Part shown: positions 10,241-47,977 of the stretch, piece by piece
Position numbering within the stretch: position 1 is the first letter of the stretch
Layout of the letters: each line of letters begins with the position of its first letter
NCBI RefSeq assembly: GCF_014863355.1
Contig: NZ_JACZEP010000010.1
Coordinates: 1 to 64,000, forward strand
Reading direction: 5' to 3'
Source: Aminobacter carboxidus
GTDB lineage: Bacteria > Pseudomonadota > Alphaproteobacteria > Rhizobiales > Rhizobiaceae
Length of the DNA: 64,000 nt
Position numbers and translations under genes: made by a program
The notes under the pieces: model-generated
The model's input: the letters and a program-made list of their open reading frames with translations, nothing else
The model's database searches: none
Told to the model about the DNA's origin: nothing

Positions 10241-11161
10241 TCAGGTCGCGGGCCGGAACGGCTTGGCCAGCGACGCCGGGAAATGCAGCGCCAGCATCTG
10301 GCGGTTCTGCGAGATGATGACCAGCACGATGATGGTGGCGAGATAAGGCAGGGCGGAAAGCAGTTCCGAGGGAACCGCGATGCCGAGTGCCTGGCCCTGC
10401 AGCTGCAGGATGGTCATGCCGCCGAACAGCCAGGCGCCGAGCAGCACACGCAGCGGCCGCCATGTCGCAAAGACCACCAGCGCCAGCGAAATCCAGCCCT
10501 TGCCGGCGGTCATGTTCTCGACCCAGAGCGGGGTGTAGGCGACCGACAGATAAGCACCGGCAAGACCAGCCATCAGCCCGCCGAACAGCACGGCGAGATA
10601 GCGGATGCGGATCACCGGATAGCCGATGGCATGTGCGGTCTCCGGCGACTCGCCGATGGTGCGCAGCACCAGCCCGCCCTTGGTGCGGTAGAGGAACCAG
10701 CTGATGACGAAGAACATGACGATGGCGAAATAGACCATCGGATCGAAGCGGAACAGCATCGGCCCGACGACGGGAATGTCGGAGAGATAGGGGATGTAGA
10801 TCTTCTTCAGCGCATCGATCGGTGCCGAGCCGAAGTTGCGGCCCAAAAAGGCCGAGACGCCGGAGCCGAAGATGGCGAGCGCCAGGCCGGCGGCATACTG
10901 GTTGGTCAAAAAGGTCAGCGCCAGCACGCCGAACAAAAGCGAGGCGGCTGCCCCGCCAAGCGCGCCGGCGAGGATTGCGACCGGCATCGGCAGGCCGGCG
11001 ATGACAGCCCAGAAGGCGAAGGCCGCCCCCATCAGCATCATGCCTTCGATGCCAAGGTTGAGAACGCCCGATTTTTCGACGACGAGTTCGCCGAGCGCAG
11101 CGAAGATCAGAGGTGTTGCGGCAATGATGGTGCCGGTGAAAATGGCAATGAACAAGTCCAT
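10241..11161 (-). CDS. BMP-type (nucleoside/simple-sugar) ABC transporter permease 2
   Basis: A 306-residue branched-chain-type permease (BPD_transp_2 family), with hydrophobic helices throughout and the family segment ELVVEKSGVLNLGIEGMMLMGA near residue 25. Its relatives (NupQ, YufQ) pair with a second permease and a double ATPase to import nucleosides. Its ATG overlaps the TGA of the upstream permease (TGATG), indicating coupling. It is the last gene of the GntR-BMP-ATPase-permease-permease operon. Confidence 0.9.
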   Translation of the reverse strand: MDLFIAIFTGTIIAATPLIFAALGELVVEKSGVLNLGIEGMMLMGAAFAFWAVIAGLPMPVAILAGALGGAAASLLFGVLALTFLTNQYAAGLALAIFGSGVSAFLGRNFGSAPIDALKKIYIPYLSDIPVVGPMLFRFDPMVYFAIVMFFVISWFLYRTKGGLVLRTIGESPETAHAIGYPVIRIRYLAVLFGGLMAGLAGAYLSVAYTPLWVENMTAGKGWISLALVVFATWRPLRVLLGAWLFGGMTILQLQGQALGIAVPSELLSALPYLATIIVLVIISQNRQMLALHFPASLAKPFRPAT

Positions 11162-12243
11162 CAGGCATGCTCCGGAATGCGGCGAAGCCGGTAGAAGATG
11201 AAGAAGTCGGCGGCAAGCAAAAAGAACAACAAGATGCCCTGGAAGATGCGGGTCAGCGCAGCCGACAGGCCAAGATTCATTTGCACTGCTTCGCCGCCGA
11301 GGAAAAGTAGCGACATCAGCAATCCACCGAGGACGATGCCGAAGGCGTTGAGGCGGCCGATGAAGGCAACGATGATGGCAGCGAAGCCGTAGCCGGGCGA
11401 GATCTGCGGCGACAGCTGTCCGAGCGGGCCCGAGACCTCGGCCATGCCGGCAATACCGGCGGCAGCGCCACCGGCAAGCAGGCCGGTCCACACCGCAGCG
11501 GATTCGCGGAAGCCGGCGTAACGCGCGGCCAGAGGTGCGGCACCACTGACCGACATCTTGTAGCCAAGGAAGCTGCGGTCGGTGAACAGCCACATCAAAA
11601 ACACCGCGACCACGGTGATGAACACCGAGGCGTTGAGCCGGTAGGCATAGTCGAACGGCTCGAACATCGCCGCCGCCGACAAAAGGGCCGTCTGCGGATA
11701 GTTGAAGCCGGCCGGGTCGCGCCAGGGGCCGTGCACCAGCCACGACAACAGCAGCGTGGCGATATAGGTCAGCATCAGCGTGACCAGGATCTCGTTGGTG
11801 TTCATCCGCGCCCTGAGGAAGGCGGGGATGGCAGCCCAGGCCATGCCGGCGATGGCGCCGGCAAAAAACATCAGCGGCAACAGCAGAATGCTGTCGGGGT
11901 CGGGGTAAAACAGGCCGACGCCGCAGGCAGCGATGGCGCCGATGATCAGCTGGCCTTCGGCGCCGATGTTCCAGACATTGGCGCGGAAGCCGACGGCGAG
12001 GCCGCAGGCGATGAGGATCAGCGGCGAGGCCTTGAGCAGCCACTCCGACAGACCGTTCAACGAATTGAGCGGGGCGATGAAGAAGGCCTGTAGCGTCGCC
12101 AGCGGGTCATAGCCGAGCACGGCAAACAGCAGCGAGCCGACGAGAAGTGTTAACCCGGTCGCGATGACCGGTGCCGCCACCCGCATCCTGGCGGATGGTT
12201 CCGGTCTTTGTTCAATCCTGAATCGCAACTTCGGCTCTCCCAT
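11161..12243 (-). CDS. BMP-type (nucleoside/simple-sugar) ABC transporter permease 1
   Basis: A 360-residue permease (NupP/YufP-like) with about nine hydrophobic stretches and the family segment GLAVGFRANVWNIGAEGQLI near residue 85, which parallels LNLGIEGMM in the partner. The N-terminal tail is cytoplasmic and Arg-rich. It overlaps the end of the ATPase gene by 32 bp and the start of permease 2 by one base, so expression is tightly coupled. Together with the ATPase at 12212 and the binding protein at 13882 it makes a complete importer. Confidence 0.9.
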   Translation of the reverse strand: MGEPKLRFRIEQRPEPSARMRVAAPVIATGLTLLVGSLLFAVLGYDPLATLQAFFIAPLNSLNGLSEWLLKASPLILIACGLAVGFRANVWNIGAEGQLIIGAIAACGVGLFYPDPDSILLLPLMFFAGAIAGMAWAAIPAFLRARMNTNEILVTLMLTYIATLLLSWLVHGPWRDPAGFNYPQTALLSAAAMFEPFDYAYRLNASVFITVVAVFLMWLFTDRSFLGYKMSVSGAAPLAARYAGFRESAAVWTGLLAGGAAAGIAGMAEVSGPLGQLSPQISPGYGFAAIIVAFIGRLNAFGIVLGGLLMSLLFLGGEAVQMNLGLSAALTRIFQGILLFFLLAADFFIFYRLRRIPEHA

Positions 12244-13753
12244 TGCTACCGTTGCCGCGGTCGACCCTTGTCATCAGCAGGCCGATTTCTTCGCGGTTGG
12301 TTTTTGTCCTGATCAGTGGCGGCGAGACCTGGCCCTGGCAGATGACGAGCAGCCGGTCGCAGATCTCGAACAATTCGTCGAGCTCCTCCGAGATCACCAG
12401 CACCGCGGCACCCGAGCGGCTCAGGTCGACAATTGTCTGGCGAATGAAGGCGGCAGCGCCGACGTCGACGCCCCAGGTCGGCTGTGCCACGAGGAACAGC
12501 TTGGGCTCGAGCGCGATCTCGCGACCAACGATGAACTTCTGCAGATTGCCGCCCGACAGGCTTTGGGCGATCGATTGCGGGCCGTTGGCCTTGACCTTGA
12601 AGCGCTCGATGATCCCAGCGGCGAAACTGCTCGCCTGCTTGCGGTCGACGAGGCCGTTGCGCACCAGGCCAGCGCGGTGGGCGGTCAAAACGGCATTCTG
12701 CCACAAGGCATGCGGCGGCACGGCACCGCGGCCAAGCCGCTCTTCCGGCACGAAGGCCATGCCGAGCTTGCGCCTTTCGCTGGCATTGAGATGGGCGGCG
12801 GCCTTGCCGTCGATCTGGATCGCCAGCGCATTGGGATGGGTGCGTTCGCCGCTGAGCAGCGAGATCAGCTCGGCCTGGCCGTTGCCGGAAACGCCGGCAA
12901 GCCCGACGATCTCGCCGCCGCGCACTTCAAACGAGACGTTCTTGAGCTCGACGCCATATTGGTCGCGGGCAGGGGCGGTCAGCCCGCGCACCTCGAGCAC
13001 CGGCTTGTCGCTCGGCACGGAGGGGCTGACGTGCATTTCGGGCAGTTCGGCGCCGACCATCATGCGGGCGAGCTGGGCCGAGGTGCTTTCCTTGGGCCTT
13101 GCGGTGCCCGTCACCTTGCCGTTGCGCAGCACGGTTGCCGTGTCGCAAAGCTCCTGCACCTCGTCGAGCTTGTGGCTGATATAGACGATCGAGCAGCCTT
13201 CGCTGGCCAGCTGGCGCAAGGTCTCGAACAGCTTGACCACGGCCTGGGGTGTCAGCACCGATGTCGGCTCGTCGAGGATCAGAAGCTTCGGCGCCTGCAG
13301 CAGGCAACGCACGATCTCGACGCGCTGGCGTTCACCGACCGACAGGTCGTGGACGCGGCGATGCGGGTCGATCGGCATGCCGTAGCGGTTCGACAGCTCG
13401 GTGATCTGGCGGGCCAGCGCATCGAGGTCGAAGGTGCTCGAAACGGCGAGCGCGATGTTTTCGACCACGGTGACGGATTCAAACAGCGCGAAATGCTGGT
13501 AGACCATCTCGATGCCAAGCGCCCGCGATGTCGCTGGCGTGTGGGCGGCGACGGGTTTGCCGTCGCAGAAGATCTCGCCGGAATCGGCCTGGGCCGCGCC
13601 ATAGATGATCTTCATCAATGTCGATTTGCCGGCGCCGTTTTCGCCGAGCACGGCGTGGATTTCGCCTGGCATGATCGACATCGAGATGTCGTCATTGGCG
13701 ATGATGCCTGGGTAACTTTTGGTGATGTTGCGCAATTCGAGGCGTGGGGGCAT
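12212..13753 (-). CDS. BMP-type ABC transporter ATP-binding protein with two ABC domains
   Basis: A 513-residue tandem ATPase of the NupO/YufO/RbsA type. The first domain has Walker A GENGAGKST (about 37-45), signature LSVGERQRVEI and Walker B LLILDEPTSVLTP. The second domain begins near 255 (VLEVRGLTAP), has SGNGQAEL in place of a canonical Walker A, signature LSGGNLQKFIVGRE, and AQPTWGVD where a Walker B Asp-Glu would be. The degenerate second site is usual for this family. It energises the two permeases downstream. Confidence 0.93.
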   Translation of the reverse strand: MPPRLELRNITKSYPGIIANDDISMSIMPGEIHAVLGENGAGKSTLMKIIYGAAQADSGEIFCDGKPVAAHTPATSRALGIEMVYQHFALFESVTVVENIALAVSSTFDLDALARQITELSNRYGMPIDPHRRVHDLSVGERQRVEIVRCLLQAPKLLILDEPTSVLTPQAVVKLFETLRQLASEGCSIVYISHKLDEVQELCDTATVLRNGKVTGTARPKESTSAQLARMMVGAELPEMHVSPSVPSDKPVLEVRGLTAPARDQYGVELKNVSFEVRGGEIVGLAGVSGNGQAELISLLSGERTHPNALAIQIDGKAAAHLNASERRKLGMAFVPEERLGRGAVPPHALWQNAVLTAHRAGLVRNGLVDRKQASSFAAGIIERFKVKANGPQSIAQSLSGGNLQKFIVGREIALEPKLFLVAQPTWGVDVGAAAFIRQTIVDLSRSGAAVLVISEELDELFEICDRLLVICQGQVSPPLIRTKTNREEIGLLMTRVDRGNGSNGRAEVAIQD

Positions 13754-13881: not shown

Positions 13882-14976
13882 TCAGCCGAGCTTGCCGATC
13901 ATTCCCTTGACGAACCAGTTCATGCCGCGGATGTCGGCATCGGCCAGCACGCTGCCTGCCGCAACCTTGACGTTGCCGTCCTGGTCCTTGAGTTCGCCGG
14001 CATAGGGGTGGATCTTGCCGGAGCCGATGTCGGCCTCGAGCTGCTTGAGCTTGGTGATGACGTCGGCCGGGATCGCCTCATTGTAGGGCGCCATCTTGAC
14101 GACGCCACCGGCCAGGCCGTCCCAGCGCGCTTCGGGCTTCCAGGTGCCTGCTGCCACGCCCTTGGCGGCGCCGACATAGTCGCTCGACCAGTCGAGCGTG
14201 AAGGCGGTGAGCTGCTTGCCCGAGCCGAACTTGGCCATGTCGCTGGCATAACCGATCGACCATGCGCCGCCTTCGCCGGCGACCTGGACACCGGTCGCGG
14301 TGTCGGTCATCGAGCAGATGACATCGCAGCCCTGCGACAGAAGCGTGTTGGCGGCTTCCTTTTCCTTGCCCGGATCGAACCAGGAATTGAGGAAGATGGC
14401 GTTGCAGGTGGCGTCGGGATTGACGCTTTGCGCGCCGAGCAGCAGCGCATTGGCCGGGCCGACGATATCGGGGATCGGGAAGCCGCCGATGAAGCCGATC
14501 TTGCCGGCCTTGCTCATATGCGCGCCGGCGGCACCGGCGACGAAAGTGCCTTCATAATATTTGGCTTCGAAGGTGCCGAGATTGGCGAGATGGACAATGC
14601 CGGAGCAATGCTCGAAGGCGACCTTGGGGAAGCGCGGGGCCACCTTCTGCATCGGCGTGCCATGCGAGAACGAGGTGCCGAAGACCAGCTGGTTGCCGGA
14701 GGCGGCGAGTTCGCGGAACACGCGTTCGGCATCCTGCGGCATGAAGATGTTGTCGATGACGGTCAGCGCGACCTTGTCGCCGAATTCCGCCTTGATGGCG
14801 TCGACGCCGAGGCTGTGCTGCTTGGTCCAGCCGATGTCGGCGATCGGCGAGACATAGACGACACCGATCTTGAGCGGCTCCTGGGCGCTGGCGATGCCGG
14901 CAAGGCCCGTGGTGCCGAGAGCGGCGCCCGCGGCGCCGGAATATTGCAGAAATTGCCGTCTGGTCAGATTGAACAT
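13882..14976 (-). CDS. BMP-family ABC transporter substrate-binding protein (Med/PnrA-like) with Tat signal
   Basis: A 364-residue periplasmic protein of the BMP (basic membrane protein, PnrA/Med) family, whose characterised members bind purine nucleosides. It starts MFNLTRRQFLQYSGAAG, a twin-arginine signal, followed by the mature fold KIGVVYVSPIADIGWTKQH, KVAFEHCSG and GKIGFIGGFPIPDIVG. ATG at 14976 is chosen because AGAGGG precedes it and the Tat signal begins there; an in-frame extension to 15048 is not needed. It is followed by the matching ATPase and permeases and preceded by a GntR regulator. The divergent oxygenase operon suggests the ligand is the oxygenase substrate. Confidence 0.9.
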   Translation of the reverse strand: MFNLTRRQFLQYSGAAGAALGTTGLAGIASAQEPLKIGVVYVSPIADIGWTKQHSLGVDAIKAEFGDKVALTVIDNIFMPQDAERVFRELAASGNQLVFGTSFSHGTPMQKVAPRFPKVAFEHCSGIVHLANLGTFEAKYYEGTFVAGAAGAHMSKAGKIGFIGGFPIPDIVGPANALLLGAQSVNPDATCNAIFLNSWFDPGKEKEAANTLLSQGCDVICSMTDTATGVQVAGEGGAWSIGYASDMAKFGSGKQLTAFTLDWSSDYVGAAKGVAAGTWKPEARWDGLAGGVVKMAPYNEAIPADVITKLKQLEADIGSGKIHPYAGELKDQDGNVKVAAGSVLADADIRGMNWFVKGMIGKLG

Positions 14977-15022
14977 GGTGGTAACCCTCTGTTGGTTGGA
15001 TGCGCCCGGCTTGTTGCCGGGT

Positions 15023-15793
15023 CTATTTTGAGGCGTGGACATGGGCATGTGCCCGTGCCGCGCCGTTTTCTCCGGCCTTTTTTCGTGGTGCCGGTTTCGG
15101 CGGCTCGCCTGACTTGCCGTCGAGATAGGGTTCGAGCGCTTCGCGCGGCGTCAGCTCGGGAAACACCTGCCGGTCCATGATGTAGCCGCGCACGACTGAA
15201 CGGTGATGCATGTCGATCAGCTCCATCGCCTGCTTCAGCCGGCCCTTTTCGAGCAGGTCGATGACCCGCGCATGGTCGTCGAGCAGGTTGCAGTAGTCGA
15301 AATCGGCGGTGATCAGCGAACGCAGCAAGGTCGTGCGGCGGACCAGCTGGGCATGGATTTCCTGCATCACCTTGTTGCGGCTGAGCCGGACGAAGACGGT
15401 GTGGAATTCCTGGCCGAGTACGTCAGCCAGCGCATCGTTGCCTGATGCCACCGCCTGGCGCTGGCGTTCGACATGCTGGCGCAGTTCGGCCCAGCCGGCG
15501 GGTCCGAGGCGGTCGCTCAACTGGGCGGCGACACCTTGCTCGACAAGCGTCAGCGCGTCGTAGATCTCGAGCGCTTCCTGCATGCTGGGACGGGCGACGA
15601 AGGCACCGCGGTTGCGCTCGATCTGGGCAAGGCCGTCGTCGGCGAGGCGGATCAGCGACTGGCGCACGACGATGCGGCTGACGTCGAAAATCTCGGCCAG
15701 TTCGCGTTCGCCGAGCTTGCAGCCGGGCACCAGCCGGTGATCGATGATCGCCCGCGTCAGTATGTCGGCAATGGCCTGCGAGCGACTGCTCAT
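15023..15793 (-). CDS. GntR-family transcriptional regulator (FCD domain)
   Basis: A 256-residue FadR-subfamily repressor. The winged HTH at the N-terminus (RELAEIFDVSRIVVRQSLIR, about 30-50) is followed by the all-helical FCD effector domain with conserved metal-binding-type residues (EFHTVFVRLSRNK, LLDDHARVIDLLEKG, DMHHRSV). The C-terminal tail is rich in Lys, Ala and His. It heads the BMP transporter operon and faces the oxygenase operon across a 243-bp intergenic region, the ideal position for co-regulating import and demethylation. Confidence 0.9.
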   Translation of the reverse strand: MSSRSQAIADILTRAIIDHRLVPGCKLGERELAEIFDVSRIVVRQSLIRLADDGLAQIERNRGAFVARPSMQEALEIYDALTLVEQGVAAQLSDRLGPAGWAELRQHVERQRQAVASGNDALADVLGQEFHTVFVRLSRNKVMQEIHAQLVRRTTLLRSLITADFDYCNLLDDHARVIDLLEKGRLKQAMELIDMHHRSVVRGYIMDRQVFPELTPREALEPYLDGKSGEPPKPAPRKKAGENGAARAHAHVHASK

Positions 15794-15936: not shown

Positions 15937-15965
15937 TTGACATGCAAATTGTCATTGATTGATAT
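15937..15965 (+). promoter_or_regulatory. Sigma-70-type promoter of the split Rieske oxygenase operon with overlapping inverted repeat
   Basis: TTGACA at 15937-15942 and TGATAT at 15960-15965 are separated by 17 bp, a near-consensus promoter about 70 bp upstream of the first oxygenase start. The spacer contains TGTCA, forming TGACA-N7-TGTCA at 15938-15954, an inverted repeat that could be bound by the adjacent GntR regulator. Related TCAATCAA and TGTCAACC segments lie at 15902-15923. The promoter is supported by sequence; operator identity is inferred. Confidence 0.5.
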
Positions 15966-16036
15966 CCAATCCTGTGGTTCCAATATGGGCATAACAGAGC
16001 TAGGTTCACGGGGAAGTGCTAGCCAGGGAGGGTGCG

Positions 16037-16903
16037 ATGAGCATAGCTGCCCTTTGTAGCGACAGAGTCCTTCTTAACGATTGGCATGTGATCGCCGACC
16101 TGACCAACCTGTCGGCGCACGAGCCGTTCCAGACCCGGCTGCTTGGCGTCGACCTGACCGTCTATTGCCGTGGCCGATACAACAAGGAAGTGTTGCGAAA
16201 CGACACCGGGGCGCTGGTCAATGCGACCAAGCGTTATGGCTTCCTGTGGGCCTGCCTCGGCAAGCCGGAGCGCGACATCGTGTTCGTGCCGGAGGCCGAG
16301 GAGGAAGACCGTTACCTGCTCACCGGCGGGTCGATCGCGGTCAAGGTTTCAGGCCTGCGAACGGTCGAGAATTTCCTCGACATGGGCCATTTCCCGTTCG
16401 TCCACACCGGCTGGCTCGGCGAGGAGCCGCATACCGAAGTCGCGCCCTACAAGGTCGAGCTGACCGCTGCCGACGAACTGGTCGCGACCGAATGCAAATT
16501 CTACCAGCCGGTGGCGTCGCCGACGGCCAAGGAAGGCTTTGTCGTCGACTATATCTACAAGGTGATCCGCCCCTACACGGTGGCGCTCTACAAGAGCAAT
16601 CCGGTGCAGAAAGAGCGGCTCGACGTCATCACCTTGTTCGTCCAACCCGTCGACGAGGAAAATTGCGTCGCCCATCCCTTCCTTTGCTATCTCAAGGACG
16701 GCAGCGACGAGGCCGGAATCCGCAACTTCATGCAGCTGATCTTTGCCCAGGACAAACCGATCCTGGAAAACCAGCTGCCGAAACGCCTGCCGCTCGACCC
16801 GCGTGCTGAAACGCCGATCCGCGCCGATGCGGTCGCTGTCTTGTACCGGCGCTGGCTGCGCGACAAATCAGTCACTTACGGCGCGATACCGGCGCGGATG
16901 TGA
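16037..16903 (+). CDS. Rieske-less oxygenase catalytic subunit, NdmC-like (subunit 1)
   Basis: A 288-residue protein matching the catalytic half of Rieske non-heme iron oxygenases. The mononuclear-iron motif is intact: E111-N-F-L-D115-M-G-H118-F-P-F-V-H123. The N-terminal portion resembles a Rieske domain scaffold (LLGVDLTVYCRG..., FLWACLG) but the CxH...CxxH cluster ligands are absent, so it cannot bind its own [2Fe-2S]. The same arrangement defines NdmC of caffeine-degrading Pseudomonas, a 7-methylxanthine demethylase that takes electrons from the Rieske domain of NdmD. ATG at 16037 follows GGGAGGG. It is the first of four co-directional genes. The reaction is inferred to be oxidative N-demethylation yielding formaldehyde; substrate unknown. 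Confidence 0.85.
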   Translation: MSIAALCSDRVLLNDWHVIADLTNLSAHEPFQTRLLGVDLTVYCRGRYNKEVLRNDTGALVNATKRYGFLWACLGKPERDIVFVPEAEEEDRYLLTGGSIAVKVSGLRTVENFLDMGHFPFVHTGWLGEEPHTEVAPYKVELTAADELVATECKFYQPVASPTAKEGFVVDYIYKVIRPYTVALYKSNPVQKERLDVITLFVQPVDEENCVAHPFLCYLKDGSDEAGIRNFMQLIFAQDKPILENQLPKRLPLDPRAETPIRADAVAVLYRRWLRDKSVTYGAIPARM

Positions 16904-16929
16904 ACCCGCGCCCTCAGGAGGAACCTCAG

Positions 16930-17835
16930 ATGACCGAGACGAGATGCAAGGATCAGGTGATCCTCGACCTTTGGCACCCGCTTGCCGCACTTTCCGAAGT
17001 GCCGGCCGGCGTGGTGGTCGGCACCATCCTGCTCGAAGAGCGCCTCAGCCTGGCCTGCGACGGCACCGGCAAGGTTGCCGTCTGGCGTTCGCGACGCGAT
17101 CTGCCTGTCGACGGGCCGGTCGACATTTCAGCGGTCGCAGGCACGCTGCCGGTCAAGCTTGCCTATGGCTATGTCTGGACGTCGCTCGGCAATCCGCCGG
17201 CCGACATCTTCCCGATCCCCGAATATGCCGAAGCTGACCGACGCAAGCTCAACGCCGCCACCTTCGGGGTCAATGTCTCGGCGCCGCGGGCGATCGAGAA
17301 CTTCCTCGACATGGGCCATTTCCCTTATGTCCACACCGATATCCTCGGTGCTGAACCGCACACGGAAGTGAAGGAATACGACGTCGAGATCTCGGTCGAC
17401 CGCGACGAGATCCTGGCCACACGCTGCCGCTTTTTCCAGCCGATGGCATCGACCACTTCGGATGGCGGCGCCGATGTCGATTATATCTACCGCGTGCCGC
17501 ATCCCTATTGCTCGGTGCTCTACAAATCGAGCCCGATGGACGAGACGCGGCTCGACGTCATTGCCGTGTTCCTGCAGCCGGTCGACCAGGAACATGTCCG
17601 GGCGCACATGTTGCTGTGCGTGCTCGACGAGGACAATGAAGACAAGGTGATCAAGCGTTTCCAGCAGACGATCTTCGGCCAGGACAAGCCGATCCTGGAG
17701 AACCAGTTCCCCAAGCGCCTGCCGCTCGATCCGCGCGCCGAGACCCCCATCAGAGCCGACAAGTCGGCGATCGCCTACCGCCGGTGGCTGAGCCAGAAGG
17801 GCGTGACCTACGGGGTCATCCCGGCCGCCACCTGA
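16930..17835 (+). CDS. Rieske-less oxygenase catalytic subunit, NdmC-like (subunit 2)
   Basis: A 301-residue paralogue of the preceding protein, sharing NFLDMGHFP, LYKS, the C-terminal QDKPILENQ and KRLPLDPRAETPIRAD segments. The iron site D127...H130-x4-H135 is intact and the Rieske Cys/His ligands are again missing. The pair may form a hetero-oligomer or act on two different N-methyl groups. ATG at 16930 has AGGAGGAAC upstream; the in-frame extension to 16900 overlaps the previous gene and is rejected. A small hairpin (GCGCC-TGAA-GGCGC, 17836-17849) lies between it and the reductase gene. Confidence 0.85.
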   Translation: MTETRCKDQVILDLWHPLAALSEVPAGVVVGTILLEERLSLACDGTGKVAVWRSRRDLPVDGPVDISAVAGTLPVKLAYGYVWTSLGNPPADIFPIPEYAEADRRKLNAATFGVNVSAPRAIENFLDMGHFPYVHTDILGAEPHTEVKEYDVEISVDRDEILATRCRFFQPMASTTSDGGADVDYIYRVPHPYCSVLYKSSPMDETRLDVIAVFLQPVDQEHVRAHMLLCVLDEDNEDKVIKRFQQTIFGQDKPILENQFPKRLPLDPRAETPIRADKSAIAYRRWLSQKGVTYGVIPAAT

Positions 17836-17876
17836 GCGCCTGAAGGCGCCAACGACAAGATATCAGCGAGGAACCT

Positions 17877-19643
17877 ATGCTCGACCTAGCCAAATCCAGA
17901 TGGCATCCCATCGCCGCGGCGCACGACCTTCCGTTGCGTCATGTCTTTCATGGCCAGCTGCTTGGCCGCGAATTCGCCGTCTGGCGCGCCGACGACGGCT
18001 ACGTCAACATCTGGGAGAACCGCTGCCTGCATCGCGGCGTGCGCCTGTCGATCGGCATCAATGACGGCCGCGAGCTGAAGTGCCAGTACCATGGCTGGCG
18101 CTATTCGAACCGCACCGCCGGCTGCACCTATATCCCGGCACACCCGGCCGATGCGCCGGCCCGCACCATCACCAACCGCACCTTTGCCGCCGTCGAGCGT
18201 TACGGCCTGGTGTGGTCGGCAGAAGAGCCGCAAGGCGAGGTGCCCGAGGTGTCAGGGTTTGCCGAAGGCAAGCTTCTGGCGCTGCGCGCCATTCCGGTCA
18301 ACGCGCCCGCCGACGTGGTGGCGGCGCAGCTTACGGGCTACCGCTTCCAGCCAAGCGGCAACATCGACGGCTCTGCAGCCAAGGTCGCGGTCGAAGCGTC
18401 CAACGCCTTTTCGGTGGCGCTGCGTTCGAGCGAGGGCGATGCCAGCACACTCGCCGTGTTGTTCGTCCAGCCGGTCGATTCCAACCGCTCGGTGATCCGC
18501 GGCGTGCTCGACAGCGAGGTCGAAGGCGCTGCCCGTCTTGCCGTGCTGCGCCACCACAATGAACTTCTGTCGCGCCTGCGGGTCGCCGTCGAAGCCGAGG
18601 CCGCGCGGGAACCTGCACCGGCCCCGCTGGAGCCGATCATCGAACGGGTCTCGCCAGAACTGGCCGAGATGCCGGAAGAGACGACACATGGCCGCAAGGC
18701 GACGATCCGCGTCCAGGTTACGAGGAAGTGGTCGGCCGCCGATGGCATTGCCGGCTTCGAACTCAGGCCGCTCAAGGGCCTGTTGCCGACCTTCCAGCCC
18801 GGCGCCCATATCGACGTGCATCTGCCCAACGGGTTGATCCGGCAATATTCAATCACCAACGGTCCGGGCGAAAGCGACAGCTACGTCATCGGCGTCAAGC
18901 TCGAACGCGACTCCAAGGGCGGCTCGACCTGCCTGCACGAGACGGTGCGCGAAGGCGACGTGCTGGCGATCTCCGAGCCGCGCAACAACTTCCCGCTGCG
19001 CCGCGATGCGATCCAGACATTGTTCATCGCCGGCGGCATCGGCATCACCCCGCTGCTCGCCATGGCCCAGGCGCTCAACAACCAGAGCCTCGGCCACGAG
19101 CTGCACTACTTCGCCCAGAACCAAGCCCAGCTCGCTTTCCCCGAAAAGACCAAGACGCTTGGCGCCTCGCTCAAGCCGCATCTTGGGCTTTCGCCAGACC
19201 AGACCGGCGCGAAGCTGCGCGAGATCCTGTCAGGCTATGGCCCCGACAAGCATGTCTATCTCTGCGGACCCGGCCCGATGCTGGAAGCGGCGCGCGCCAT
19301 CGCCGCCGAGATGGGCTGGCCGGAAACGGCGGTGCATTTCGAATATTTCAAGAACACCAATGTCATCGACGACTCCACCAGCTTCGAAGTGGCGCTGGCG
19401 CGCTCCTGCATGACGCTGACGGTGCCGGCCGGCAAGACGATCCTCGAAGTGATGCGCGACGCCGGCATCGACATGCCGTCGTCCTGCGAGCAGGGCGCCT
19501 GCGGTACCTGCCTGGCCACCGTCATCGAAGGCGAGCCCGACCATCAGGACGTCTATCTCAACGATGCCGAGCGCAAGTCCGGCACCAAGATCATGACCTG
19601 CGTGTCGCGTGCCAAGTCGGCGCGGCTTGTGCTCGACCTCTAG
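17877..19643 (+). CDS. NdmD-like reductase: Rieske domain fused to a flavin/NAD reductase and plant-type ferredoxin
   Basis: A 588-residue electron-transfer fusion. Residues about 1-110 are a Rieske domain with intact ligands C50-L-H52 and C69-Q-Y-H72. Residues about 110-270 are a linker resembling the remains of an oxygenase fold (LFVQPVDSNRSVIRG). Residues about 275-500 are a phthalate-dioxygenase-reductase-type module (RQYSITNGPG for flavin, GGIGITPLLAMA for NAD(P)H). The C-terminus is a plant-type [2Fe-2S] ferredoxin: C537-x4-C542-x2-C545...C575. This order is that of NdmD, the dedicated reductase supplying the Rieske centre to NdmC. It lies between the two Rieske-less subunits and a GST-like gene and must serve them. 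Confidence 0.9.
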   Translation: MLDLAKSRWHPIAAAHDLPLRHVFHGQLLGREFAVWRADDGYVNIWENRCLHRGVRLSIGINDGRELKCQYHGWRYSNRTAGCTYIPAHPADAPARTITNRTFAAVERYGLVWSAEEPQGEVPEVSGFAEGKLLALRAIPVNAPADVVAAQLTGYRFQPSGNIDGSAAKVAVEASNAFSVALRSSEGDASTLAVLFVQPVDSNRSVIRGVLDSEVEGAARLAVLRHHNELLSRLRVAVEAEAAREPAPAPLEPIIERVSPELAEMPEETTHGRKATIRVQVTRKWSAADGIAGFELRPLKGLLPTFQPGAHIDVHLPNGLIRQYSITNGPGESDSYVIGVKLERDSKGGSTCLHETVREGDVLAISEPRNNFPLRRDAIQTLFIAGGIGITPLLAMAQALNNQSLGHELHYFAQNQAQLAFPEKTKTLGASLKPHLGLSPDQTGAKLREILSGYGPDKHVYLCGPGPMLEAARAIAAEMGWPETAVHFEYFKNTNVIDDSTSFEVALARSCMTLTVPAGKTILEVMRDAGIDMPSSCEQGACGTCLATVIEGEPDHQDVYLNDAERKSGTKIMTCVSRAKSARLVLDL

Positions 19644-19652
19644 GAGTTACCG

Positions 19653-20300
19653 ATGATTACGCTTTACGACTACGAACTGTCGGGCAACTGCTACAAGCTG
19701 CGCCTGCTGATGGGCATGCTCGGTGTCGAGTGGAAGACCGTTCCCGTCGACTTCTATCCCGGCCGCGAGCACAAGTCGGACTGGTTCCTCAAGATCAATC
19801 CGCTCGGCCAGCTGCCTGTCATCGACGACGACGGGCTCATCCTGCGCGACGCCCAGGCGATCCTTGTCTATCTCGCTTCTAAATACGATGCGTCCGGCAC
19901 GTGGTACCCACGCGACAATCCAGCTCTGCTCGGCGAGATCAGCCAGTGGCTGGCCTTTGCCGACGGCATCACCGGCACGGCTTCGGCAGCGCGCCTACAT
20001 GATGCACTGTTTTACGACTTCGACGTCGAGGCGGCGCGGGCCGGTGCGCATCGGCTGTTTCGCATCCTCGACGAACATCTGTGGTTCGGCGAACAGGAAG
20101 GGCGCAACTGGATCTGCTCGGCGGCTCAGCCGACGATCGCCGACATCGCCTGCTTCCCTTACATCATGCTGTCGGAAGAAGGCGGCATACCAAGACAGGA
20201 CTATCCGGCGATCCGTCGCTGGTGTGACCGTTTAAAGCGCATCAAGGGTTTTGCCGTGATGTCGGGCGTGTTCCCGGCCGGACCAGCCAAGGCTGCCTGA
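19653..20300 (+). CDS. Glutathione S-transferase-like protein, NdmE-like
   Basis: A 215-residue GST-fold protein: N-terminal thioredoxin-like domain (MITLYDYELSGNCYKLRLLM, the cis-Pro motif NPLGQLPVIDDDG and LRDAQAILVYLASKY) and an all-helical C-terminal domain. In the Pseudomonas caffeine cluster the GST homologue NdmE is needed to make the soluble NdmC-NdmD-NdmE complex. Position directly after the NdmD-like gene (9 bp gap, AGGAG site) supports the same structural role. Alternatively it could handle glutathione adducts of formaldehyde, as a glutathione-dependent formaldehyde dehydrogenase follows. Confidence 0.85.
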   Translation: MITLYDYELSGNCYKLRLLMGMLGVEWKTVPVDFYPGREHKSDWFLKINPLGQLPVIDDDGLILRDAQAILVYLASKYDASGTWYPRDNPALLGEISQWLAFADGITGTASAARLHDALFYDFDVEAARAGAHRLFRILDEHLWFGEQEGRNWICSAAQPTIADIACFPYIMLSEEGGIPRQDYPAIRRWCDRLKRIKGFAVMSGVFPAGPAKAA

Positions 20301-20355: not shown

Positions 20356-21483
20356 ATGAAAACCCGCGCTGCAGTCGCCGTCGGAGCTGGAAAGCCGCTC
20401 GAGATCATGGAGGTCGACCTCGAGGGGCCGCGCGAGGGCGAGGTGCTTGTCGAGATCAAGGCGACCGGCATCTGCCACACCGACGAGTTCACTTTGTCGG
20501 GTGCCGATCCCGAAGGCATCTTCCCTGCCATTTTGGGCCATGAAGGTGCCGGTGTCGTCGTCGATGTCGGCAAGGGTGTGACCTCGCTCAAGAAGGGCGA
20601 CCACGTCATCCCGCTCTACACGCCGGAATGCCGCTCCTGCCCGTCCTGCCTCAGCCGCAAGACCAATCTGTGCACCGCGATCCGCTCGACCCAAGGCCAA
20701 GGTCTGATGCCGGATGGCTCGAGCCGGTTTTCGATCGGCAAGGACAAGATTTTTCACTATATGGGCTGCTCGACCTTTTCGAACTTCACCGTGCTGCCCG
20801 AGATCGCGCTGGCCAAGGTCAACCCGGACGCCCCGTTCGACAAGATCTGCTACATCGGTTGCGGGGTAACGACAGGCATCGGCGCGGTCATCAATACCGC
20901 CAAGGTCGAGATCGGTTCGACGGCGATCGTCTTTGGCCTCGGCGGCATCGGCCTCAACGTGCTGCAGGGTCTTCGTCTTGCCGGTGCCGACATGATCATC
21001 GGCGTCGACATCAACAATGACCGCAAGGCCTGGGGCGAAAAGTTCGGCATGACGCATTTCGTCAATCCGAAGGAGGTCGAGGGCGACATCGTGCCTTACC
21101 TCGTCAACATGACCAAGCGTGGTGCCGACCAGATCGGCGGTGCCGACTACACCTTCGACTGCACCGGCAACGTCAAAGTGATGCGCCAGGCGCTCGAAGC
21201 CAGCCATCGCGGCTGGGGCGAAAGCATCGTCATCGGTGTCGCCGGTGCCGGCCAGGAGATCGCAACGCGGCCGTTCCAGCTGGTCACCGGCCGGACCTGG
21301 AAGGGCACTGCCTTTGGTGGCGCGCGTGGCCGTACTGACGTTCCGAAGATCGTCGACTGGTACATGGAAGGCAAGATCCTGATCGACCCGATGATCACGC
21401 ATACGCTCAAGCTCGAAGACATCAACAAGGGTTTTGACCTGATGCACTCGGGCGAAAGCATCCGCAGCGTCGTGGTCTACTGA
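20356..21483 (+). CDS. adhC: S-(hydroxymethyl)glutathione dehydrogenase / class III alcohol dehydrogenase
   Basis: A 375-residue zinc alcohol dehydrogenase of class III, the glutathione-dependent formaldehyde dehydrogenase (also called frmA or flhA). Visible features: catalytic zinc Cys in ATGICHTDEFT, GHEGAG, structural-zinc cysteines in CRSCPSCLSRKTNLC, NAD motif GLGGIGLNVLQG and the class-III C-terminus DLMHSGESIRSVVVY. It oxidises S-hydroxymethylglutathione, the spontaneous adduct of formaldehyde, to S-formylglutathione. It lies 55 bp after the oxygenase operon and before the S-formylglutathione hydrolase, so it likely removes formaldehyde released by demethylation. Confidence 0.95.
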   Translation: MKTRAAVAVGAGKPLEIMEVDLEGPREGEVLVEIKATGICHTDEFTLSGADPEGIFPAILGHEGAGVVVDVGKGVTSLKKGDHVIPLYTPECRSCPSCLSRKTNLCTAIRSTQGQGLMPDGSSRFSIGKDKIFHYMGCSTFSNFTVLPEIALAKVNPDAPFDKICYIGCGVTTGIGAVINTAKVEIGSTAIVFGLGGIGLNVLQGLRLAGADMIIGVDINNDRKAWGEKFGMTHFVNPKEVEGDIVPYLVNMTKRGADQIGGADYTFDCTGNVKVMRQALEASHRGWGESIVIGVAGAGQEIATRPFQLVTGRTWKGTAFGGARGRTDVPKIVDWYMEGKILIDPMITHTLKLEDINKGFDLMHSGESIRSVVVY

Positions 21484-21734: not shown

Positions 21735-22568
21735 ATGAAGACCATTTCCACGTCGAAGTCGCATGGCGGCATCCAGGGCGTCTATGCGCACGCATCCGCG
21801 GCCTGCGCCTGCGACATGACCTTTGCCGTCTTCGTGCCGCCGCAGGCCAAGGACGGCCCGGTGCCGGTGCTGTGGTATCTCTCTGGCCTGACCTGCACCC
21901 ATGCCAATGTCATGGACAAGGGTGAATACCGCCGCCTTGCCGCCGAGCTTGGCCTGATGATCGTCTGCCCGGATACCAGCCCGCGCGGCGAAGGTATCGC
22001 CGACGAGAAGGACAACTGGCAGTTCGGTTCGGGTGCCGGCTTTTATGTCGACGCGACCGAGGCGCCGTTCGCGAAAAACTATCTGATGTATTCCTATGTC
22101 ACCGAGGAACTGCCGGCGCTGATCGCGGCAAACTTCCCCGCCGACATGTCGCGCCAGGCGATTACAGGCCATTCGATGGGCGGCCATGGTGCGCTGACCA
22201 TCGCGCTCAAGCACCCCGAGCGCTTCAAGAGCTGCTCGGCCTTCGCGCCCATCGCCCAGCCTTCGACGGCGGGCTGGTCGAAGCCGGCGCTGGAGAAATA
22301 TCTCGGTTCCGATGAGGCCGCCTGGCGCGCCTATGACACGACGTTGCTGATCGAGGACGGCAAGCGTTTCCCGGAATTCCTCGTCGACCAGGGTTCATCC
22401 GACAGCTTCCTCGACGAGGGCCTGCGCCCCTGGCTGCTCGAAGAGGCCTGCACGAAATCAGGCATCGGCCTGACCTTGCGCATGCAGGATGGCTACGATC
22501 ATTCCTACAACTTCATCTCGACCTTCATGGACGATCACCTGAGGTGGCACGCCGCCCGGCTTGGCTGA
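21735..22568 (+). CDS. fghA: S-formylglutathione hydrolase
   Basis: A 277-residue alpha/beta-hydrolase of the esterase D family: N-terminal KTISTSKSHGGIQGVYAH, oxyanion region YLSGLTCTHANVMDKG, nucleophile elbow GHSMGG, and the His in DGYDHSYNFISTF. It hydrolyses S-formylglutathione to formate and glutathione, the step after the dehydrogenase at 20356. ATG at 21735 is chosen with AGAAGG upstream; a TTG extension to 21711 is less likely. The 250-bp gap upstream holds a hairpin and could hold a separate promoter. Confidence 0.93.
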   Translation: MKTISTSKSHGGIQGVYAHASAACACDMTFAVFVPPQAKDGPVPVLWYLSGLTCTHANVMDKGEYRRLAAELGLMIVCPDTSPRGEGIADEKDNWQFGSGAGFYVDATEAPFAKNYLMYSYVTEELPALIAANFPADMSRQAITGHSMGGHGALTIALKHPERFKSCSAFAPIAQPSTAGWSKPALEKYLGSDEAAWRAYDTTLLIEDGKRFPEFLVDQGSSDSFLDEGLRPWLLEEACTKSGIGLTLRMQDGYDHSYNFISTFMDDHLRWHAARLG

Positions 22569-22584: not shown

Positions 22585-23343
22585 TCACGGCCTCGCCGCC
22601 AGCAGCTTGGTGAAGACATGGCGCTTCGCCTTGCCGATGCTGATCTCCAGCGTTTCATATTGTGCCAGATGTGCCGCGATCGCGCTGGCCAGCATGCAGC
22701 CGGTGCCGCGCATGGCGACAGCGATGCGCGATGCGTCGAAGCGGACGGGTTCGCGCCCCGGCTGGATCAGCAGGTCCGTCGCGGTGGCGCCGGTTGCGTG
22801 GCCGCCTTTGACCAGGATGGCGGATGCGCCGGCGGCGAACAGTTTTTCGGCTTGTTCGACGATCTCTGTTTCGCCGCTGGCGAGCGGCCGGCCGCTCAGC
22901 AGCGCCAGTTCGGGCAGGTTGGGCGTGACAAGCGTGCACAGCGGAAACAGCTTGCGCTTCAGCGTGTCGATGGCCTCGTCGTCGAGCAGCTGCCCCCCCG
23001 AGCTCGAGGCGAGCACAGGGTCGAGCACGACAGGCACCGGCAGGCTGCTCGCCAGCACCGAAGCGACGGTGTCGATAACAGCCGCCGTTCCGAGCATGCC
23101 GATCTTGACCGCAGCGACAGGGTCGGCGGCGAAGGCGGCGCGCATCTGGTCGGCGACAAGGTCGGGCGGCATCTGTTCGATACGCTCGACGCGCTGATGC
23201 GTCTGCACCGTCACCGCCGTGATGGCGAGGCTGCAGCGCAGGCCGAAGGCCGACACCGTCTCGATATCGCGGACGATGCCGGCGCCGCCGCTCGAATCCG
23301 AGCCGGCGACAACAAGCACATGCGGGGGCACATGCGGGCTCAT
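22585..23343 (-). CDS. thiD: Hydroxymethylpyrimidine/phosphomethylpyrimidine kinase
   Basis: A 252-residue ribokinase-fold kinase that phosphorylates HMP and HMP-P to HMP-PP for thiamine synthesis. Signature segments: VLVVAGSDSSGGAGI at the N-terminus, KIGMLGTA, VLDPVLASSSG, VTPNLPELALLSG, ILVKGGH, and the anion-hole motif GTGCMLASAIAA. ATG at 23343 overlaps the thiE stop by four bases, and is preferred over a GTG at 23349. Last gene of the TPP-riboswitch-controlled thi operon. Confidence 0.95.
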   Translation of the reverse strand: MSPHVPPHVLVVAGSDSSGGAGIVRDIETVSAFGLRCSLAITAVTVQTHQRVERIEQMPPDLVADQMRAAFAADPVAAVKIGMLGTAAVIDTVASVLASSLPVPVVLDPVLASSSGGQLLDDEAIDTLKRKLFPLCTLVTPNLPELALLSGRPLASGETEIVEQAEKLFAAGASAILVKGGHATGATATDLLIQPGREPVRFDASRIAVAMRGTGCMLASAIAAHLAQYETLEISIGKAKRHVFTKLLAARP

Positions 23344-23945
23344 CGCCACTCAGCCGTCGCTGCCAGCCATTGACGCGTGCGCGCCTCGGGATCGGCGTTG
23401 AGCGTGATGTCGGTGACGACGGCAGCAATGTCGGCGCCGTGGGCAAAGACGCCTGATATACGCTCGACATTGAGCCCGCCAATGGCAACCAGCGGTGTGG
23501 TGCCAACACGCTTTTTCCATTCGACGATGCGGTCGAGCCCTTGCGGCGCCCACTTCATCGCCTTGAGGATGGTCGGATAGACAGGGCCTAGCGCGACATA
23601 GTCGGGTGCGGCGGCAAGTGCGGTGTCGAGTTCGGCATCGTCATGGGTGCTGAGGCCGAGCTTCAGGCCGGCATGGCGGATCGCTGCCACATCAGCCTCG
23701 GCCAGATCCTCCTGGCCGAGATGGACGTAGTCGCAGCCCGCGTCGATGGCGAGGCGCCAGTAATCGTTGACGACGAGCTGGCAGCCATGGCGCGCGCAGA
23801 TGGTTTTCGCCACGCGGATTTCGCGGCGCAGGCCGGCCTCGTCCATGTCCTTGATGCGCAGTTGCACCAGCTTGACGCCCAACGGCACCAGCCGCTCGAT
23901 CCAGGCGGCGGAATCGACAATCAGGTAGAACGGGTCGAGCTTCAT
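23340..23945 (-). CDS. thiE: Thiamine-phosphate synthase
   Basis: A 201-residue TIM-barrel enzyme coupling HMP-PP and thiazole phosphate to thiamine phosphate. Visible motifs are [55 protein letters not shown] and LVAIGGLN. It overlaps thiG upstream and thiD downstream by four bases each (ATGA), so the three are translationally coupled. It is slightly short relative to other ThiE proteins but has all the conserved segments. Confidence 0.93.
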
Positions 23946-24715
23946 GAAAATGCTGCCATGCCGATGACGGGGGTGGAGGGAACGGCCATGTCGCGCGGTT
24001 CGAGCGGGCCGGCGCGGAACGCCTGCCGTCCGGCTTCAACCGCCTTGCCGAAAGCACAAGCCATGGCGACGGGGTCGCTGGCCTTGGCAACAGCCGTGTT
24101 GAGCAGCACGGCGTCGTAGCCGAGTTCCATGACGGTGGCGGCATGCGAGGGACGGCCGATGCCGGCATCGACGATCAGCGGCACGTCGGGGAAATGGCCG
24201 CGCAGGCTGCGCAAGGCGTCGAGGTTCTGCGGCCCGCGGGCAGAGCCGATCGGCGCGCACCACGGCATCAGCACCTTGCAGCCGGCATCGAGCAGCCGCC
24301 CGGCGACGACCAGATCGTCTGTCGTGTAGGGGAAGACCTCGAAGCCGTCGGCAGCGAGAATCCTGGCCGCCTCGACGAGGCCGAACACGTCGGGCTGCAG
24401 CGTGTCGTGATTGCCGATGACCTCAAGCTTGATCCAGATGGTGGCAAAGACCTCGCGCGCCATCTTCGCCGTGGTCACCGCTTCCTTGACCGAGTGGCAG
24501 CCGGCGGTGTTGGGCAACACGCGCACCCCGAGCGACTGGATCAGCGACCAGAATTTTCCGCCCGTCTTGCCGCCGGAAGTCTCGCGGCGCAGCGAGACAG
24601 TGACGATGTCGGCGCCCGACGCCTTGATCGCCTCGGCCATGATGGCGGGCGAGGGGTAAAGCGCGGTGCCGAGCAGCAGGCGGGACGGGATTTGTTGTCC
24701 GTAGAGTTCGAGCAT
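23942..24715 (-). CDS. thiG: Thiazole synthase
   Basis: A 257-residue TIM-barrel enzyme that forms the thiazole ring from deoxyxylulose phosphate, dehydroglycine and ThiS-thiocarboxylate. The Schiff-base lysine is in the strand [12 protein letters not shown]; other signatures are [49 protein letters not shown] and [12 protein letters not shown]. It follows thiS by 3 bp, matching their functional partnership. Confidence 0.95.
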
Positions 24716-24718
24716 GGC

Positions 24719-24899
24719 TTACCCTCCCTTCATCGGTGCGAGGATTTCGATGCGGTCGCCATCGGCGAGCGCGCAGCCGTCGCGCTGCCTGGCCGGCACG
24801 ACCTCGCCATTGAGTGCTGTGGCGAGCCAGCCGCCTTCATAGTCGAGCTCAGTGAGCAGCGCTGCGAGCGTGGCGGCCGTCACCTCGCACTGTTCGCCG

Positions 24900-24916
<17 letters not shown>
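24719..24916 (-). CDS. thiS: Sulfur carrier protein ThiS
   Basis: A 65-residue ubiquitin-fold carrier ending in the Gly-Gly required for thiocarboxylate formation (PMKGG). Internal signatures are LAALLTELDY and ALNGEVVPARQRD. It donates sulfur to ThiG for the thiazole ring. Its start overlaps the end of thiO by 17 bp and it is followed closely by thiG. Confidence 0.93.
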
Positions 24917-28027
<3,111 letters not shown>

Positions 28028-47900: not shown

Positions 47901-47977
47901 TGGTGATCCCGACAGGAATCGAACCTGTGACCTACAGATTAGGAATCTGCCGCTCTATCCTACTGAGCTACGGGACC
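47901..47977 (-). tRNA. tRNA-Arg (CCT anticodon)
   Basis: On the minus strand: acceptor GGTCCCG pairs with CGGGATC, D-arm TAGCTCAGTAGGATAGAGC, anticodon stem-loop GCAGA-TTCCTAA-TCTGT with anticodon CCT (reads AGG, Arg), T-arm CAGGTTCGATTCCTG, discriminator A and encoded CCA. A complete 77-nt gene. Its 3' end is the integration site of the island to its left. Confidence 0.97.
47903..47928. repeat. Right attachment repeat (attR) inside tRNA-Arg
   Basis: The 26 bp GTGATCCCGACAGGAATCGA plus ACCTGT match 36243-36268 with one mismatch. The intact tRNA is on this side, as expected when an element inserts and restores the 3' end. Confidence 0.85.

Follow-up and report, generated by a model that had tools for sequence, protein, structure and literature searches.

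The window analysed here is a 64,000-nucleotide stretch of the 6.29 Mb genome of Aminobacter carboxidus (contig NZ_JACZEP010000010.1, positions 1–64,000), and it carries a gene cluster for a split Rieske oxygenase of the NdmCDE type. Four forward-strand genes form its core: ndmC1 (16037–16903, 288 amino acids) and ndmC2 (16930–17835, 301 amino acids) for two paralogous catalytic subunits without a Rieske cluster, ndmD (17877–19643, 588 amino acids) for a reductase that bears one, and ndmE (19653–20300, 215 amino acids) for a GST-like subunit. The first-pass annotation ended at 20300; the cluster extends beyond it on the same strand with frmA, for S-(hydroxymethyl)glutathione dehydrogenase (20356–21483; TIGR02818, 589.2 bits against an NCBIfam cut-off of 543.95), and frmB, for S-formylglutathione hydrolase (21738–22568; TIGR02821, 452.9 bits against 281.7). 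The gaps between these six genes are 26, 41, 9, 55 and 254 bases. The nearest relative among the loci found was that of Aminobacter anthyllidis (NdmC1 99%).

NdmC1 and NdmC2 matched the Pfam model VanA_C (E = 4.1e-21 and 2.2e-20), and no Rieske model matched either protein up to E 0.1. The motif D-x2-H-x4-H was present in 146 of 147 NdmC-like proteins scoring above 150 bits, the lone miss (L017) being cut by a contig end, and the pattern C-x-H...C-x2-H occurred in 0 of the 147; the first-pass annotation was thus right in describing two proteins with the iron-site motif and without Rieske ligands. D127, H130, H135 and a downstream D252 were invariant across 91 aligned NdmC sequences. Judged by motif and invariance, D252 is probably the carboxylate iron ligand, and the Asp of D-x2-H-x4-H is, we assume, the bridging Asp of known Rieske oxygenases. 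A classical alpha subunit holds the Rieske cluster and the mononuclear iron site in one polypeptide, and NdmC does not. That one of the paralogues might be dead was ruled out, both retaining all iron-site residues.

NdmD matched the Pfam models Rieske (2.7e-16), NAD_binding_1 and Fer2, and the Rieske ligands C50, H52, C69 and H72 were invariant in 46 fused NdmD sequences, in agreement with the initial description of a reductase with a full N-terminal Rieske centre. By Pfam, hhalign and a structure model, the protein consists of a Rieske domain (residues ~1–115), a degenerate catalytic-type domain (~139–243), and then a flavin/NAD reductase and a C-terminal plant-type ferredoxin; its solved-structure matches by sequence included phthalate dioxygenase reductase, SxtT, NdmA and the NdmD ferredoxin domain. 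In hhalign, whose E-values here are for single comparisons, NdmC2 11–52 aligned with NdmD 5–46, the start of the Rieske domain (96.5%, E = 9e-10; score 51.9, with 50 column shuffles reaching at most 21.2). Similarly, NdmD 146–241 aligned with NdmC2 160–259, which make up the latter half of its catalytic domain (81.8%, E = 1.1e-5; score 41.5, with 50 shuffles reaching at most 25.8), and a QPVD motif is common to these two segments. The first catalytic half, with D-x2-H-x4-H, had no counterpart in NdmD. Unrelated control profiles (NdmE, BMP, reductase) gave E-values of 0.11–0.41. A D-x2-H-x4-H-like string at residue 17 of the L035 NdmD lies outside any iron site.

The AlphaFold model of NdmC2 (mean pLDDT 88.7), in which the N-terminal strand domain is confident, matched whole Rieske oxygenases, namely SxtT (TMq up to 0.81, rmsd ~5 Å) and NdmA (TMq 0.68, rmsd 6–7 Å). 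In the NdmD model the middle domain is confident and residues 50–99, which include the Rieske ligands, and 257–273 are poor; Foldseek returned reductases first and then SxtT/GxtA (270–295 columns, E = 3e-13 to 7e-13, rmsd 10–12 Å). SxtT and GxtA/SxtDIOX are complete alpha subunits with both centres in one polypeptide, and they are the best solved matches both of the NdmC1 and NdmC2 sequences, alongside NdmA and NdmB, and of the NdmC2 model fold. From the alignments and models together, each protein resembles a whole oxygenase subunit minus the other's centre. By sequence, then, the split is complementary: NdmC retains a Rieske-fold remnant and NdmD retains a catalytic remnant without the iron site. 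It may have originated by duplication and complementary loss. The first-pass idea of a Rieske centre transplanted onto the reductase therefore stands as to where the centre lies and falls as to a bare transplant; a lone transplanted Rieske domain is ruled out by the degenerate catalytic-type domain fused behind it (hhalign, Foldseek of the model).

NdmE matched the GST_N and GST_C models and is, as first described, a GST-like protein encoded after the reductase. The usual glutathione-binding motif of GST proteins is Glu-Ser; at this site NdmE has Asp66 (79 of 83 aligned sequences) and Ala67 (72 of 83), and Ser10 is retained in 76 of 83. This altered motif would fit the structural role proposed for NdmE in print (PMC4408171 among the sources).

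The reference for this architecture is NdmCDE of Pseudomonas putida CBB5, the 7-methylxanthine N7-demethylase (PMC4408171). Its description there agrees with the window cluster in a Rieske-less NdmC, a Rieske-bearing reductase NdmD and a GST-like NdmE, and the CBB5 gene map likewise shows frmA and frmB, which also follow ndmE in the Paraburkholderia caffeinilytica cluster. NdmA and NdmB, the caffeine N1- and theobromine N3-demethylases, are N-demethylating Rieske oxygenases served by NdmD; unlike the window NdmC, they bear their own Rieske cluster (PMC4408171). In contrast to CBB5, the window has tandem NdmC paralogues, a divergent AtzT-like ABC transporter, and no NdmA or NdmB noticed adjacent. 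The ndmA and ndmB genes that stand beside ndmCDE in a caffeine (Alx-type) cluster were not seen with the NdmC1 and NdmD queries (NdmA and NdmB were not used as queries): NdmC1 found only NdmC2 and one 33% match on another contig, and on the window's contig NdmD matched no further Rieske protein.

Two caffeine-type clusters were chosen by gene content as anchors (L085, L086; not CBB5 proteins), one on a Klebsiella plasmid, where a single complete oxygenase is encoded, the other on plasmid p1 of Paraburkholderia caffeinilytica CF1, which encodes two. In both, the complete oxygenases, taken as NdmA/B-like from motifs compared by eye, lie beside a Rieske-less NdmC, NdmD and NdmE. Trees were computed on thinned sets (102 of 157 rows in the first; 99 rows in the second, three long outgroup rows having been removed beforehand). 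The 92 NdmC rows formed one clade (100/99) against seven complete oxygenases, with the caffeine-type anchors inside; the Rieske-less proteins group with caffeine-type NdmC and apart from complete oxygenases. The NdmC1 clade (100/99) also includes the single NdmC of L058, L059, L061 and L067, and the caffeine-type NdmC group with Paraburkholderia (100/99) outside the C1 and C2 groups. Domain content, gene order and the common clade together place the cluster in the NdmCDE class. The sequences themselves establish the domain make-up, the full sets of ligands, the complementary degeneration, the linkage of the genes and the membership of the clade.

Relatives were collected with NdmC1 as query, and the 80 loci compared (L004–L083) are the best 80 of 264, a set consequently biased to NdmC1-bearing systems. 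Neighbouring reading frames came from a home-made codon score (81 of 82 loci yielded them) that missed genes in some loci (e.g. L056, L070), so that neighbour counts over the 82 loci are lower bounds; annotation of neighbours covers chosen representatives among the loci. GntR relatives were present in at least 41 of 82 loci and close BMP relatives in at least 65. The order NdmC-NdmD-NdmE with GntR, BMP and ABC genes recurs in Mesorhizobium, Ensifer, Labrys, Nitratireductor and others, part of them with frmA, and plasmid pSymA of S. meliloti 1021 (L084) carries ndmC1-C2-D-E with GntR, BMP and ABC genes. Tandem NdmC genes were found in 52 of 80 loci, which makes the different subunit set first proposed real and common to many relatives; 23 had a single NdmC, and five had two NdmC genes outside the tandem rule (L051, L056, L057, L063, L082), overlapping in L051 and L056 and with NdmC1 in pieces in L057. 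More widely, 16 of 297 genomes of the order hold a fused NdmD (E 1e-120), and 10 of 398 genomes of the phylum hold an NdmE (E 1e-50). In five loci a third Rieske-less NdmC paralogue, ~50% identical to NdmC2 (L032 3946, L036 3848, L037 3859, L038 3956, L047 3965), sits just upstream of ndmC1-C2-D-E, preceded by SHMT, 2-hydroxyacid dehydrogenase and AraC-type genes and followed by its own BMP/ABC transporter.

The Rieske partner occurs in at least four layouts among these loci. Full fusion (at least 540 amino acids) was found in 62 of 80. Seven Paraburkholderia loci (L064, L065, L066, L069, L071, L074, L075) encode a 388–400-residue fusion of Rieske domain, vestige and ferredoxin; no flavin/NAD part was matched in these proteins, and their electron donor is therefore presumably encoded elsewhere. 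A protein of Rieske domain and vestige only (230–256 residues) was found in L058, L060, L061, L067 and L068, with two more in genomes of the order (L161, L162), and Herminiimonas L082 has separate reductase and Rieske genes (231 residues). The partner of L059 and L079 has 351 residues with a long low-complexity stretch; that of L017 and L055 is cut by ends, and that of L042 is broken into two frames.

The part of the first-pass claim that called this a new member holds for the tandem and split details; as a family it is not new, since ndmCDE homologues, mostly of Sinorhizobium and Mesorhizobium and of unknown function, are already in print (Summers 2013, as cited in PMC4408171). They very probably belong to the family described here, since both genera yielded close relatives of the window cluster, and the citing text in PMC4408171 makes no mention of tandem NdmC, vestigial domains or the transporter. 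No function is assigned to the rhizobial clusters in the portions of the literature covered by our searches (including PMC4408171, PMC8055839, PMC6834077, PMC12445004 and PMC13237722). The searches also found no paper joining 7-methylguanine with Rieske, with guanine deaminase and 7-methylxanthine together, or with bacterial catabolism by deaminase and demethylation; papers on 7-methylguanine and 7-methylxanthine included, by title and abstract opening, none on bacterial breakdown.

NdmC1 and NdmC2 differ at fixed positions that include Met232/Gln245, Gly106-Leu107/Ala118-Pro119, Arg178/His191 and Asn188/Ser201. Met232/Gln245 is aligned with an NdmA Asn, presumably number 282, for which the NdmA QL mutant has Gln; NdmA reportedly switches from N1 to N3 upon two active-site changes. 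Because the paralogues differ at this specificity residue, it is plausible that they differ in positional specificity. NdmA and NdmB are listed as α3α'3, an arrangement that by analogy is a possible model for NdmC1 and NdmC2.

Divergent from the operon, on the reverse strand, lie genes for a GntR-family regulator (15023–15793; each of the 25 GntR-type models shown scored under its cut-off), a BMP-family solute-binding protein (13882–15048), an ABC transporter ATPase (12212–13753; NF047930, 432.9 bits, under the cut-off of 670) and two putative permeases (11161–12243 and 10241–11164), assigned by position, conserved cluster and the permeases annotated at the matching place in Sinorhizobium sp. 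K101. A near-palindrome upstream of ndmC1, GATTGATATCCAATC (15957–15971), is a possible regulator site; its core, TATCCAAT, occurs in 19 of 19 chosen upstream regions. Adjoining the transporter is a gene for an M81/MlrC-like hydrolase (8735–10207), which, of the loci read, only L004 and L007 share at this position; its identity as a microcystinase was rejected (383.8 bits against a cut-off of 999).

The binding protein is nearest to AtzT (6pi5, 1e-95) and Brucella 3s99 (1.7e-89), the latter modelled with adenine (PMC6834077). AtzT binds guanine at 110 nM, ammeline at 0.36 μM and 2-hydroxyatrazine at 2.2 μM, holding guanine between Tyr45 and Trp194 with Ser97, Phe98, Glu165, Asn218 and Asn220 (PMC6834077). 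The window protein retains Ser97, Phe98 and Trp194, three of these seven contacts, and differs from AtzT by Tyr45→Trp, Glu165→Asp, Asn169→Pro, Asn218→Met and Asn220→Asp; its nine-position pocket was found in 42 binding proteins, itself included. The hydrophobic residue in place of Asn218 would suit a methylated ring.

Ten of the 80 loci (L014, L039, L061, L067, L070, L072, L073, L078, L080, L083) have a guanine-deaminase-like gene within or beside the cluster. Two of these deaminases were tested and scored 405.8 and 404.3 bits (guanine deaminase cut-off 375.4), and the subfamily motif TH[CV]SESDW was present in 20 of 20 further members examined, whereas the canonical enzyme of L061 has THLSEN. 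Other neighbours in some loci are adenine deaminase, NCS2 permease, adenosine deaminase, xanthine dehydrogenase and 8-oxoguanine deaminase. In the reverse search, 26 of 297 genomes of the order carried the deaminase subfamily, as did, at E 1e-80, 6 of 398 of the phylum (G591 being on both the NdmE and the deaminase lists). Among the 20 best-scoring deaminase neighbourhoods, an NdmC-like gene (at least 47%) was present in 8, of which 5 also hold NdmE and a Rieske protein; two others had matches of 33–35%, and BMP or ABC genes were present in 13. In L146, L148 and L153 the SESDW deaminase gene adjoins an NdmC-like gene, a further amidohydrolase gene and an ABC transporter; over the length read, neither NdmE nor a Rieske partner was matched there. 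L153 adds an 8-oxoguanine deaminase. The subfamily probably has a wider role, since no NdmC or BMP neighbour was matched in L145, L147, L154, L155, L156, L158 and L164. Betaine or pyrimidine substrates were rejected, since the neighbours annotated gave no hint of either; a contrary sign on betaine comes from Sinorhizobium sp. K101, where a glycine-betaine binding protein is annotated at a distance of ~14 kb.

These neighbours suggest purine bases rather than caffeine as the demethylation substrate, and we consider it fairly probable that the product of the operon is an N-demethylase of the NdmCDE type acting on an N-methylated purine base. A substrate other than the known one of NdmCDE, as first supposed, is plausible; a methylguanine or methylxanthine from nucleic-acid turnover is our favoured guess, though a tentative one. 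We infer complex formation, the electron path, demethylation, the purine substrate and a division of labour between NdmC1 and NdmC2, as follows. The binding protein and ABC transporter would take up the purine base. Electrons from NADH would pass through the NdmD flavin and plant-type ferredoxin to the NdmD Rieske cluster, and from there, crossing the subunit interface through the bridging Asp, would reach the iron in one or other NdmC paralogue. This iron would activate O2 and hydroxylate the N-methyl carbon, which would depart as formaldehyde for disposal by FrmA and FrmB. The Rieske part of NdmD would be a degenerate complete oxygenase subunit, with the Rieske cluster retained and the iron site gone, and NdmC its mirror image; as each has lost the other's centre, the two should function only in combination. 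The role of NdmE is probably to keep NdmC and NdmD together, and NdmC1 and NdmC2 probably act on two methyl positions or two related purines.

Several observations weigh against this proposal. Four of the seven AtzT guanine contacts are changed in the window protein, and AtzT binds hydroxytriazines too. Seven of the 20 deaminase neighbourhoods held neither NdmC nor a transporter, which slightly lowered our confidence. The window genome lacks the deaminase subfamily (best match 27%, none at E 1e-80), and deaminase and fused NdmD co-occur in only one genome of the order (G179; 26 versus 16 of 297). Purine genes were found in 21 of 80 loci versus 0 of 20 stretches of one genome, in a control that is small and partly circular, its queries coming from five of the test loci (16 of 75 without them); 10 of the 21 owe their status to the deaminase subfamily, L041 and L062 are positive partly or wholly through weak 25–28% matches to xanthine dehydrogenase subunits, and L030 is a near copy of L029. 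Of the 82 loci, some of which are truncated at a contig end, at least 27 had a called frmA and at least 10 a called frmB, and the NdmC2 clade is weak (64/0).

If the enzyme were instead an N7-demethylase of methylxanthines (the caffeine family), acting on the substrate of Pseudomonas NdmCDE, this would account for the same subunits and overall clade, for the presence of frmA and frmB, which the Paraburkholderia caffeinilytica cluster has too, and for the Gln of NdmC2 at the NdmA Asn282 equivalent, as in both caffeine-type NdmC. We regard this reading as unlikely, given that both caffeine-type NdmC lie outside the C1 and C2 groups, with Paraburkholderia, that the pocket of the binding protein differs from that of the caffeine-plasmid protein (WSFTDPWMD versus WAFEENWND), and that no NdmA/NdmB-like neighbour was noticed with the two queries used. 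Demethylation or dealkylation of some heterocycle other than a purine, for instance a hydantoin or an N-alkyl-s-triazine, would suit the affinity of AtzT for 2-hydroxyatrazine and ammeline (PMC6834077) and the fact that no purine-catabolism gene was noticed adjoining the operon within the window; the deaminase (guanine-deaminase-like, adenine, adenosine or 8-oxoguanine) and xanthine dehydrogenase genes adjoining some relatives make it decidedly improbable. SxtT and GxtA, the nearest solved structures, are hydroxylases, and most of the 82 loci lack a called frmA, but a hydroxylase or dioxygenase without formaldehyde release, with frmA and frmB adjacent by chance, is very improbable when frmA lies directly 3' of ndmE in the window and many relatives and the characterised NdmCDE takes off a methyl group (PMC4408171).

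Elsewhere in the window, putative thiamine biosynthesis genes (thiD, thiE, thiG, thiO, thiC, judged by eye) occupy 22585–27910 on the reverse strand, and the sole tRNA found is a tRNA-Arg (CCT) at 47901–47977, also on the reverse strand.

From its sequence the cluster appears to be a catabolic operon of a known, little-studied class, with its architecture now better resolved and its purine substrate hypothetical. New here are the complementary split, the range of partner layouts, the purine context and NdmC paralogues that differ at an NdmA specificity residue. A two-domain oxygenase can evidently be divided into two half-broken, mutually dependent subunits, and the natural variants (separate Rieske protein, Rieske-ferredoxin fusion, full Rieske-reductase fusion) allow experimental comparison. 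The proposal offers a testable function for the Sinorhizobium and Mesorhizobium clusters, which we also detect in many other bacteria, and a candidate pathway by which methylated purines might be recycled. It is possible, if on balance doubtful, that the cluster is one branch of a widespread bacterial methylated-nucleobase pathway of AtzT-like import, SESDW deamination in some relatives and split-oxygenase demethylation. If so, the imported base might be, for example, 7-methyl- or N2-methylguanine from RNA or DNA turnover, which the deaminase would turn into a methylxanthine; methyl removal by the split oxygenase, with NdmC1 and NdmC2 as position-specific demethylases having one Rieske-reductase in common, would feed ordinary purine catabolism, and the use of NdmCDE to break down caffeine would have come later, drawing on an older salvage chemistry.

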